Origin: Geodermatophilus saharensis
Lineage (GTDB): Bacteria; Actinomycetota; Actinomycetes; Mycobacteriales; Geodermatophilaceae
Direction: 5' to 3'
Assembly (NCBI RefSeq): GCF_900188205.1
Contig: NZ_FZOH01000006.1
Coordinates: 1-64,000 of the forward strand
DNA length: 64,000 bases
The stretch's first letter is position 1; each line of letters opens with the position of its first letter. A program made the translations under genes and the position numbers. Shown here in pieces: positions 26,972 to 30,389 of this stretch. Under the pieces are notes generated by a model, which saw nothing but the letters and a program-made list of their open reading frames with translations, did no database searches and was not told where the DNA came from.

Positions 26972-27047
26972 CCCGGCCTGCCCCGCTGTGGGGACCGCGC
27001 CGCTCCCCGGCCGACGGCGGACGCCGCGCCGGGCGATGATCGGCGCC

Positions 27048-27839
27048 GTGGCGGAGTACACGGAGACGGCACCGGGACGCGCACTGGTGGAGTCCGGCGA
27101 GCTGGTGGCCGGGACGATGGCGCGCACGGCCGCCGCCCTGCTGTTCGACGACGGGTCCGCGCGGGTGCGCCTGGACGGCGCGCTGGCCGCCTGGCTGCGC
27201 CGCACCGCGACGGCGGCCGACGCCGCCCCCCCGCCCCCCGTCTCCCCCCGGGCCCGCTGCCGCGCGGGTGCCGCGCTGGCCTTCGCCGCCGAGCTGTCGG
27301 TGACCCGCGCCGCGGAGGGCCGGGCGGTGCGCACCGACGGCTTCCTCACCCCCGGCCCCGGCGGCCGCGCGCCGGCCGACGAGGTCGGCGAGGGTGTGGT
27401 GCTCGCCGCGCAGGCGGCCACCGAGGAGTGGCGGGTGCGGCACCTGGGCTACCTGCTCGCCGAGTCGGCGGTCTCCGCCGACCTCGACGTCGCCGTCGTC
27501 TCCCGCGGGCTGCGGCTGGGCGCCGCCCTGACCGGGCGCCAGCTGGTGCTGCTGGCCGCCGTCGGCCGGCGCGAGCGCGCGCCGCTGCCGATGACGCCGG
27601 TGCCGCAGGACCCGCGCGGGTGGACCGCCTGGGGCGCACTCGAGGACCTCGGCGAGCTGCAGCGCGGCGGGCTGCTCGACCCGCCGCCGGCCACCCCGCG
27701 CCCGGGCGGCTCCGCGCTGCCCCGGCTGCGGCCGGCCGACCTGCGGCTGACCCGCCGCGGCGTGCTGGTGCACCGGCTGCTGGCGCTGGACTTCGTCCGC
27801 GACCAGGCGGTCACCGCGGCGCTGGCCGACCTGGCCTGA
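27048..27839 (+). CDS. Protein of unknown function
   Basis: 263 residues, not recognised. Ala- and Arg-rich, no signal peptide and no clear membrane helix. The C-terminal half (about 150-255) includes a region like a helix-rich winged fold (WTAWGALEDLGELQRGGLL, then LRLTRRGVLVHRLLALDFV). I considered a Golgi-phosphoprotein-3-like (GPP34) fold and could not support it. GTG start at 27048, with GATGAT (27035-27040) ending 7 nt upstream. Convergent with the ammonia-lyase-like gene, with an inverted repeat between them. Confidence 0.7.
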   Translation: MAEYTETAPGRALVESGELVAGTMARTAAALLFDDGSARVRLDGALAAWLRRTATAADAAPPPPVSPRARCRAGAALAFAAELSVTRAAEGRAVRTDGFLTPGPGGRAPADEVGEGVVLAAQAATEEWRVRHLGYLLAESAVSADLDVAVVSRGLRLGAALTGRQLVLLAAVGRRERAPLPMTPVPQDPRGWTAWGALEDLGELQRGGLLDPPPATPRPGGSALPRLRPADLRLTRRGVLVHRLLALDFVRDQAVTAALADLA

Positions 27840-27935: not shown

Positions 27936-29402
27936 TCACCGCCCGCCGGGGAAACGCGCCCGCAGGGCCGCGTGGACGGCGTCGGGGTACGGGTCGGCGG
28001 CGGCGACCGCCTCCCGCACCAGCGCCAGCGCCGCCGCGGTGCCGGTGCCGAGGGCGGCGGGCTGCGGCGCCGTGGCGAGGACGTCGGAGGCCAGCAGCAG
28101 CTCGACGGCGAGGAGGTCCTCCAGCAGCCCGAGCGCGGTGTCGGCCTTGCGGACGCTGAGCGGCGCGCCGGTCGCGTGGTCCTCGACGCCGAGGTCCAGC
28201 GGCGGGACGTCGAGGGTCGCCGGTGCGGCCAGCTGCACCAGCTCCGCGACGACGGCCGCCGCGGGGTAGCGCAGCGCCAGCCCGTACGCCGCCGCGGCCG
28301 GCGGGCCGGTCGGCTGCCGGAAGAACGCCTCCCACAGGTGGGCCATCCGCCGGTCGGCGAGCTGCCCGACCTGCGCGACGGCGATGCGCAGGGCGTCGGC
28401 GGCCAGCGCCAGCACCATCGGGTGGAAGTTGCCGTTGCTCAGCAGCGTGCCGTCCTCGACCGACACCAGCGGGTTGTCGGCGGCGGCGGCCAGCTCGCCC
28501 TCGACGGCGGAGCGCAGGGCGCCGACGTACTCCCGCAGCGCCCCGTGCACCTGCGGCACGACCCGGAAGGACAGGGCGTCCTGCACCGACGCGGCGCCGT
28601 CGGGGCCGAGCAGCGCGCTGCCGGTGAGCAGCCGGCGGAGGTGGTCGGCGGCGGCGAGCTGCCCGGGGATCGGCTTGGCGCGGCCCACGGCGGGGTGCAG
28701 GACCGACGGGTTGGCCCGTGTGGCCTCCATCGACACCGCCGCGGCGACGTCGGCGGCGTCGGCCGCGCGCGCCGCCCGGGCGGCCACCAGCGCCGCCTGG
28801 CCGACCGACACCCCGTTGGCCGAGATCAGCGCCAGCCCGTCCTTGCCGGCGAGGACGAGGGGCGCGATGCCCGCCCGCCGCAGCGCCTCCCCGCCCGGCA
28901 GGACCTCCCCCCGGTACTCGGCCCGGCCGAGCCCGACGGCGACCTGCGCCATCCCGGCCATCTGGCCGACGTCGGCGGCGCCCACCGAGCCGGTCGCGGG
29001 CACCACCGGGTGGACGCCGGCGTCGAGCATCGCCGCCAGCGTCTCGGCGACCGCGGGCGAGGCACCCGAGCCGCCGCGGGCGATGCCGGCCAGCCGCACG
29101 GCGAGGGCGGCACGCACCACGGGCACCGGCAGCGGCGGCCCGATCCCGCCGGCGTGGGAGAGCACGAGGAACTGCTGCTCGCGGTGGATCTCCTCCGCGC
29201 TCAGCCGGGTGTCCCGCAGGTGGCCGACCTGGGTGGTCAGGCCGTAGACCGCGGCGCCGGACGCGAGGGCGTCGTCGACGAGGGCCCGCGCGGCGGCGAT
29301 GCGCTCCCGGGCGGACCCGTCGAGCTCCACCCGGGCGCCGGAGACGACGGCGAGCAGGTCGTCGACCGACATCGGTGCGGTGCCGATCCGCACGGTGGTC
29401 AT
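27936..29402 (-). CDS. Aromatic amino acid ammonia-lyase-fold protein lacking the MIO tripeptide
   Basis: 488 residues and collinear with histidine/phenylalanine ammonia-lyases: AVYGLTTQVG aligns with the catalytic Tyr53 loop, VPATGSVGAADVGQMAG with the MIO loop, KDGLALISANG with the NGTQ region, QDALSFRVVPQVHGA with QDPYSLRCxPQV, SNGNFHP with NGNFHG, and VEDHATG with QEDHVS. The Ala-Ser-Gly triad that self-condenses to the MIO electrophile is Ala142-Ala143-Asp144 here, at the same positions as in HAL. The Tyr of the QDPYS motif is Leu277. An MIO group cannot form from AAD, so standard lyase activity is unlikely. ATG start with GGGAGG 5 nt upstream. Divergent from the TetR gene at 29595, which may control it. 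Confidence 0.85.
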   Translation of the reverse strand: MTTVRIGTAPMSVDDLLAVVSGARVELDGSARERIAAARALVDDALASGAAVYGLTTQVGHLRDTRLSAEEIHREQQFLVLSHAGGIGPPLPVPVVRAALAVRLAGIARGGSGASPAVAETLAAMLDAGVHPVVPATGSVGAADVGQMAGMAQVAVGLGRAEYRGEVLPGGEALRRAGIAPLVLAGKDGLALISANGVSVGQAALVAARAARAADAADVAAAVSMEATRANPSVLHPAVGRAKPIPGQLAAADHLRRLLTGSALLGPDGAASVQDALSFRVVPQVHGALREYVGALRSAVEGELAAAADNPLVSVEDGTLLSNGNFHPMVLALAADALRIAVAQVGQLADRRMAHLWEAFFRQPTGPPAAAAYGLALRYPAAAVVAELVQLAAPATLDVPPLDLGVEDHATGAPLSVRKADTALGLLEDLLAVELLLASDVLATAPQPAALGTGTAAALALVREAVAAADPYPDAVHAALRARFPGGR

Positions 29403-29594: not shown

Positions 29595-30389
29595 GTGGAC
29601 GGCGAGGACACCATCCCGATGCGGCGTCCCGACCCCGACTCCCCGGAGGGGCGCGGGGGCGCCGGCATCGTGGTCCCGGCCGGTCCCCCGAGCACCGGCC
29701 GGGCCGGCCTCGACCGCCGGCGCATCCTGGGCGCCGCGATCGAGTACATCGACCGGCACGGCCTGGCCGCGCTCACCATGCGTCGCCTGGGCGCCCACCT
29801 CGGCGTGGAGGCGATGGCGCTCTACCGCTACGTGCCCGGCCGCGAGCAGCTGCTCGACGGCGTCGTCGAGACCGTGGTCGACGAGCTGTACGGCGACCCG
29901 GAGGTGCACCTGCGCGCCGCCCACGGCTGGCAGGACTACGCGCAGCGCCTCGCCCACGGCGTCCGGCGGATCGCGCTCGCCCACCCGGAGGTCTTCCCGC
30001 TGGTGGCCACGCGGCCCCCGGCCGCCCCGTGGGTCCGCCCGCCGCTGCGCAGCCTGCGCTGGATCGAGTCCTTCCTCACCGTGATGACCGACAGCGGCTT
30101 CAGCCCGGAGGCGGCGGTGGCGGCCTACCGCGCCTACTCCAGCTTCCTGCTCGGACACCTGTTGTTGGAGGTGTCGCAGAAGGGGGTACAGATCACCCCG
30201 GAGGACGCGCCGGAGGGCGTCCCGGACACGGGGACCGACCTCGGCCAGTACCCCCTGGTGGTGGAGCTGGAGGAGCTGCTGTCCCGCGACGAGTCGGCCG
30301 CCGAGTTCGAGGAGGCCCTCGAGAACCTGCTCGACCGGCTGGAGTCGGTGCGGGCGGAGGGCCGGGTCCCCGGGGAGAGATCCGAGTGA
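29595..30389 (+). CDS. TetR-family transcriptional regulator
   Basis: 264 residues. N-terminal HTH (about 45-95: LDRRRILGAAIEYIDRHGLAALTMRRLGAHLGVEAMALYRYVPGREQLL) and a C-terminal ligand domain of the TetR_C_1 type. The first ~40 residues are a charged, Pro-rich extension. The GTG at 29595 has GGGAGG (29584-29589) 5 nt upstream. Divergent from the ammonia-lyase-like gene; a palindrome directly after its stop (30392-30410) is a candidate operator for it or another regulator. Confidence 0.9.
   Translation: MDGEDTIPMRRPDPDSPEGRGGAGIVVPAGPPSTGRAGLDRRRILGAAIEYIDRHGLAALTMRRLGAHLGVEAMALYRYVPGREQLLDGVVETVVDELYGDPEVHLRAAHGWQDYAQRLAHGVRRIALAHPEVFPLVATRPPAAPWVRPPLRSLRWIESFLTVMTDSGFSPEAAVAAYRAYSSFLLGHLLLEVSQKGVQITPEDAPEGVPDTGTDLGQYPLVVELEELLSRDESAAEFEEALENLLDRLESVRAEGRVPGERSE

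Follow-up and report, generated by a model that had tools for sequence, protein, structure and literature searches.

The protein encoded at positions 27936 to 29402 on the minus strand of the analyzed window, a 64,000-nucleotide stretch of Geodermatophilus saharensis DNA, is probably a lyase of the histidine ammonia-lyase (HAL) fold that operates without MIO and splits off trimethylamine from a betaine of the histidine type, such as ergothioneine, hercynine or a compound derived from them. The open reading frame starts with ATG and translates without internal stops into 488 residues, hereafter P0001. In a profile search, P0001 matches the Pfam family Lyase_aromatic (PF00221) end to end over residues 12-464, with 414.9 bits. 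Its score against the curated hutH model (TIGR01225) is 329.9 bits, far under the cut-off of 539.15 bits, and an identity as histidine ammonia-lyase was rejected on this basis; the curated model set used here contains no ergothionase model. The AlphaFold2 model of P0001 (pLDDT 93.1, pTM 0.93) gave its top TM-score among the hits listed with ergothionase 6s7j (TM 0.92/0.91, rmsd 2.4, 25% identity), the Treponema denticola enzyme that is the only MIO-free relative in the PDB set. Superposition on PpHAL (1b8f) yielded TM values of about 0.90/0.87 and an rmsd of 2.7-2.8 at 30% identity, making ergothionase the better structural match although its sequence identity to P0001 is lower.

To follow individual positions, P0001 was aligned with 39 relatives that are 37-88% identical, giving a family alignment of 40 rows. 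Where MIO enzymes read A-S-G-D, the original prediction had reported Ala142-Ala143-Asp144 (codons 28971-28979, minus strand), as well as Leu277 in the position of a conserved tyrosine. Both are as stated, and the former can be refined: the loop reads GSVGA-AD against GSVGASGD in PpHAL, so that one residue is deleted, Asp144 corresponds to the conserved Asp145 of HAL, and the apparent triad reflects this deletion plus drift. Homologues restoring ASG, which were to be sought as a refutation, are absent (0 of 40 rows). Residue 143 varies among A, G and S, Asp144 is present in 40 of 40 rows and position 277 is always L, I or V, a pattern too consistent to be a chance effect. Several relatives from Chloroflexota carry the loop GSVGASD, in which Ala-Ser is retained and only the glycine is missing. 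Leu277 (codon 28572-28574, minus strand) replaces Tyr280 of HAL, as seen in VQDALSFR versus VQDPYSLR. The third change concerns HAL position 195, which is asparagine in all MIO rows and serine in MIO-less rows, the latter with an asparagine at 196; in P0001 this segment is Ser194-Ala195-Asn196 (codons 28815-28823, minus strand), with the new conserved asparagine two residues further on. Both the Asn195 to Ser and the Tyr280 to L/V/I replacements extend throughout the MIO-less clade; the residue table lists one Tyr and one Thr among the MIO-less rows, and both come from a duplicate MIO row (L102) placed in that column. Because ASG/CSG, Tyr280 and Asn195 are all replaced, P0001 is, as read from its sequence, unable to form MIO, which confirms the earlier claim and adds the loss of Asn195 to its grounds.

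The remainder of the active site is retained. Tyr53, Asp144, Asn196, Gln274, Arg280, Glu303 and Glu407 are invariant in the family alignment (40/40), and HAL Tyr53, Gln277, Arg283, Phe329 and Glu414 are common to MIO and MIO-less rows. Tyr53 (codon 29244-29246, minus strand) is the catalytic tyrosine of HAL and PAL, and its presence within a full Lyase_aromatic fold bears out the HAL/PAL-like layout first proposed. His83 (29154-29156, minus strand; 36/40) is the imidazole-side residue of HAL, Arg280 (28563-28565, minus strand) is equivalent to HAL Arg283, which binds the substrate carboxylate, and Glu407 of the EDH motif (28182-28184, minus strand) is equivalent to HAL Glu414. In Geobacillus HAL, mutation of Y52, H82, N194 or E411 abolishes activity, with Y52F, H82L and E411D among the inactivating changes (PMC11432326); P0001 keeps the three of these residues that are not tied to MIO. 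Arg378 (codon 28269-28271, minus strand), within an LRY motif, is specific to the subfamily, being arginine in 32 of 40 rows and glutamine in most MIO enzymes. The adjacent Tyr379 (LRYP) aligns with Lys383 of the ergothionase chain 6s7j.

In HAL the electrophilic MIO is needed to expel ammonia, which leaves poorly. Trimethylamine is released from its quaternary form as a neutral molecule, for which catalysis by acid and base can be enough, as has been suggested for ergothionase. We infer the reaction, substrate class and residue roles of P0001 as follows. The enzyme would catalyze a beta-elimination converting an L-histidine-type betaine into trimethylamine and a urocanate-type acid, with Arg280 gripping the substrate carboxylate, His83 and Glu407 holding the imidazole ring, and Tyr53 removing the beta-proton. 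Since trimethylamine would depart as a neutral amine from the quaternary nitrogen, MIO would be unnecessary. A urocanate product could feed the hut pathway, HutU being present in the same genome.

The phylogeny was reconstructed without the MIO-loop and QDxYS columns. A single branch with support of 100/99 separates MIO from MIO-less rows and places ergothionase on the MIO-less side. P0001 belongs to a 32-row clade (100/99) together with L067, L071, L078, L079 and L111, which leaves out ergothionase and the Polaromonas lyases; these branch at other places on the MIO-less side. No group was recovered that unites P0001 with 6s7j alone among the MIO-less lyases, and the position of 6s7j, on a long branch, is unsure. 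The trees are unrooted; MIO-bearing enzymes occupy one side of the branch, and in another comparison MIO-less groups fall on more than one side. The lyase gene occurs in some, not all, Geodermatophilus, in Blastococcus, Georgenia, Arthrobacter, Pseudarthrobacter, Tersicoccus and Phytoactinopolyspora, in uncultured Actinomycetota and Chloroflexota, and more distantly in Chelativorans and Polaromonas. Within a sample of the phylum, 8 of 396 genomes besides that of G. saharensis carry it (E <= 1e-100). Another Geodermatophilaceae genome contains what is probably a broken copy (G027:C43:19305-19792), in which two overlapping frames cover the C-terminal half only, at 70-77% identity to the lyase.

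The genome of G. saharensis encodes a second PF00221 protein, a HutH with a CSG triad located on another contig (G000:C12:362861-364249) and directly followed by HutU, so that histidine deamination is already covered by an MIO-type enzyme. No match to ErtD was found in this genome at 1e-100, and the search for thiourocanate hydratase returned only HutU; thiourocanate would thus be without a dedicated outlet. The presence of HutU together with the absence of ErtD and thiourocanate hydratase slightly favours hercynine over ergothioneine as the substrate. EgtD, the first enzyme of ergothioneine biosynthesis, is absent from this genome and from three other lyase-bearing genomes. Among complete Geodermatophilaceae genomes that carry the lyase, 3 of 5 lack EgtD, versus 0 of 6 lyase-free Geodermatophilus; it is present in 2 of 4 lyase-carrying Geodermatophilus genomes. 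An inverse relation between lyase and EgtD was considered too weak, the cases being few and many other lyase-free genera also lacking EgtD, and the distribution of EgtD gives no clear direction on the substrate.

The lyase gene of G. saharensis has no pathway partners beside it, and in close relatives (Geodermatophilus, Georgenia, Arthrobacter) the lyase genes likewise stand alone among unrelated neighbors. The divergent TetR-family gene from which ligand control had originally been suggested is real (29595-30389, plus strand; TetR_N and TetR_C_1 matches), but control by its product is not supported. In G. amargosae, G. aquaeductus and G. obscurus (L041-L043), the same regulator lies at least 1.4 kb from the lyase, separated by an AraC regulator and a DUF2000 gene and, in L041 and L042, also by apparent nitrate/nitrite reductase genes. 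Because the orthologues lie apart, the adjacency in the window is likely incidental and the regulator is probably not functionally linked to the lyase; TetR control was accordingly rejected as a conserved link. Downstream of the lyase, a gene at 26988-27839 without a Pfam match keeps its synteny in several Geodermatophilus. A molybdopterin oxidoreductase was also considered as a partner common to the Geodermatophilus loci and L079, and was rejected because the enzymes differ: judged from N-terminal sequences only, those of Geodermatophilus look like an assimilatory nitrate reductase accompanied by nitrite reductase, and that of L079 is an S/N-oxide reductase.

The gene context of more distant MIO-less lyases points to histidine-type betaines as substrates and urocanate-type acids as products. 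In L071 the lyase is followed by an ErtD-like amidohydrolase and a thiourocanate-hydratase-like protein; in L067 the corresponding genes diverge from the lyase and are joined by a peptide-type ABC transporter; and L131, a further member of the P0001 clade, has close homologues of both beside its lyase. The neighbors in L067 and L071 score best against ergothioneine-utilization models, yet remain below the curated cut-offs. In the ergothioneine-utilization-type cluster of Chelativorans multitrophicus (L079), S-methyl-thiourocanate hydratase (980 vs 880 bits) and ErtD (775 vs 600 bits) exceed their cut-offs, and the cluster includes a glycine-betaine-type (OpuAC-type) ABC transporter. In L078 the lyase lies between HutI and HutU within a hut cluster, with a canonical HutH nearby. 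The lyases of Polaromonas and Chelativorans that carry a QKT motif are found with betaine-type ABC transporters in hut clusters whose hydratase is a plain HutU (935 and 960 bits).

Further arrangements were observed among these loci. Hut clusters at L121:13635-18534 and L122:6473-11304 combine a QKT-type MIO-less lyase with an OpuAC-type binding protein, two permeases and an ATPase, and are predicted to import a betaine and convert it to urocanate. At L120:1-7713 and in L131, two different MIO-less lyases share one cluster with ErtD-like and thiourocanate-hydratase-like genes, which suggests a division of substrates. A second MIO-less branch, with the loop GAGEI and the motif QAPVSYR, is encoded directly after HutU at L094:5167-8565 and L095:8033-11296, in clusters that also hold a HutC-type GntR regulator, HutG and HutI. 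No other MIO-type PF00221 gene was found in these two genomes, which are metagenome bins in which absence is not proof, and the lyase is a candidate MIO-free replacement of HutH. A gene of the ornithine cyclodeaminase/mu-crystallin family recurs near MIO-less lyases in several phyla (L121, L122, L081, L089, L090, L091). Hydantoinase A/B beside L065 was dropped as a possible partner, as its neighbors suggest an unrelated cluster.

Several other readings of P0001 must be weighed, and they differ in whether the protein is an enzyme at all and, if so, in its substrate. Loss of the ASG triad might indicate a decaying histidine ammonia-lyase, but there is practically no chance of this: pairwise dN/dS of the lyase against six congeners is 0.18-0.32, frames are open across phyla, and the genome also holds a separate functional-looking HutH. 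This purifying selection, together with the conserved family, rules out decay, in agreement with the original view of an open, non-decaying frame, and P0001 with its relatives forms a conserved subfamily. That view had left a choice between a repurposed enzyme and a binding protein. A non-catalytic, ligand-binding role would fit the missing electrophile and the stand-alone genes of Actinomycetota, but is very improbable given that Tyr53, Arg280, Gln274 and Glu407 are invariant and that ergothionase, an MIO-less relative, is an active enzyme. The repurposed enzyme is supported: P0001 retains Tyr53, His83, Arg280 and Glu407, which serve in general acid/base catalysis and in anchoring the substrate, it has lost the residues that form MIO or touch it, and an MIO-free ergothionase is known.

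With regard to the substrate, an ergothionase proper would convert ergothioneine into thiourocanate and trimethylamine, as the MIO-less group and motifs common to 6s7j and the ErtD-like and thiourocanate-hydratase-like genes adjoining the relatives L067, L071 and L131 would suggest. This identity is rather unlikely, because the QKT lysine is missing, the genome lacks both downstream enzymes, and half of the carrier Geodermatophilus genomes (2/4) have EgtD and make ergothioneine, which would create a futile cycle unless regulated. A trimethylamine-lyase acting on hercynine (histidine betaine) and yielding urocanate for the hut pathway is a tentative possibility; it is consistent with HutH and HutU lying together on another contig, with the location of L078 inside a hut cluster, with the association of distant Polaromonas and Chelativorans lyases with betaine-type transporters and plain HutU, and with retention of the HAL imidazole-side residues His83 and Glu414. 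The gene nevertheless lies outside the hut cluster in Geodermatophilus, and no report of a hercynine trimethylamine-lyase was found in the literature searched. It is unlikely that the substrate is ergothioneine in an oxidized (sulfonate) or S-substituted (S-methyl) form, or a different aromatic betaine, and that Arg378 recognizes an additional acidic group on it: the LRY motif is subfamily-specific and the same-clade L079 lies beside an S-methyl-thiourocanate hydratase above cut-off, but the motif is missing from L079 itself, and the function proposed for Arg378 is putative. Under the favored MIO-independent betaine lyase, the LRY subfamily may, though the balance is against it, be a distinct group whose substrate is not ergothioneine, for example a hercynine trimethylamine-lyase supplying urocanate to the hut pathway in soil and desert actinobacteria.

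Databases label such proteins histidine or aromatic ammonia-lyases, and with no ergothionase model in the curated set, MIO-free lyases are likely misannotated. A recent survey judged ergothionase to be rare and did not count divergent homologues (PMC13405746); the clade of P0001, which spans Actinomycetota, Chloroflexota and Proteobacteria, is such an uncounted set. If its members release trimethylamine from histidine betaines, they would constitute an overlooked source of trimethylamine in soil and a sink for ergothioneine-related compounds. With this clade one can also test which changes in the active site go along with the absence of MIO.

Among known enzymes, P0001 shares with HutH (PpHAL 1b8f and the HutH of its own genome) the fold, the collinear layout and the equivalents of Tyr53, His83, Gln277, Arg283, Phe329 and Glu414, and differs in lacking ASG/CSG, Tyr280 and Asn195, at about 30-40% identity. 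The C. multitrophicus L079 lyase is 41% identical, belongs to the same clade and is likewise MIO-less (loop SVGASD, motif QDPVSFR), but unlike P0001 it has no LRY motif and is clustered with ErtD, S-methyl-thiourocanate hydratase, an OpuAC-type transporter and the S/N-oxide reductase. The absence of MIO from ergothionase is stated in a 2026 paper (PMC13405746), and this precedent, unnamed in the original prediction, makes the loss of MIO in P0001 less exceptional. A second ergothionase (BAM63550) has been characterized from Burkholderia sp. HME13; the comparison here uses the T. denticola sequence (6s7j/6s7q). Like that enzyme, P0001 has the HAL fold without MIO and a loop shortened by one residue; of the ergothionase motifs SSIGEGD, KDGLSIVSCN (SCN) and QDPLSFR, it has KDG..S.N and QD.LSFR in common, and both proteins keep Tyr53, the arginine and EDH. 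The two differ in overall sequence (about 25% identity), in the QKT of ergothionase versus the LRY of P0001, and in the known downstream genes of ergothionase, which are missing from the G. saharensis genome. The QKT lysine, which we take to have a catalytic role in ergothionase, is found in 6s7j and in the Polaromonas and Chelativorans L103 lyases and is missing from P0001, where Tyr379 stands instead. By sequence, therefore, P0001 resembles ergothionase in the absence of MIO, a likeness that does not establish its identity as one.
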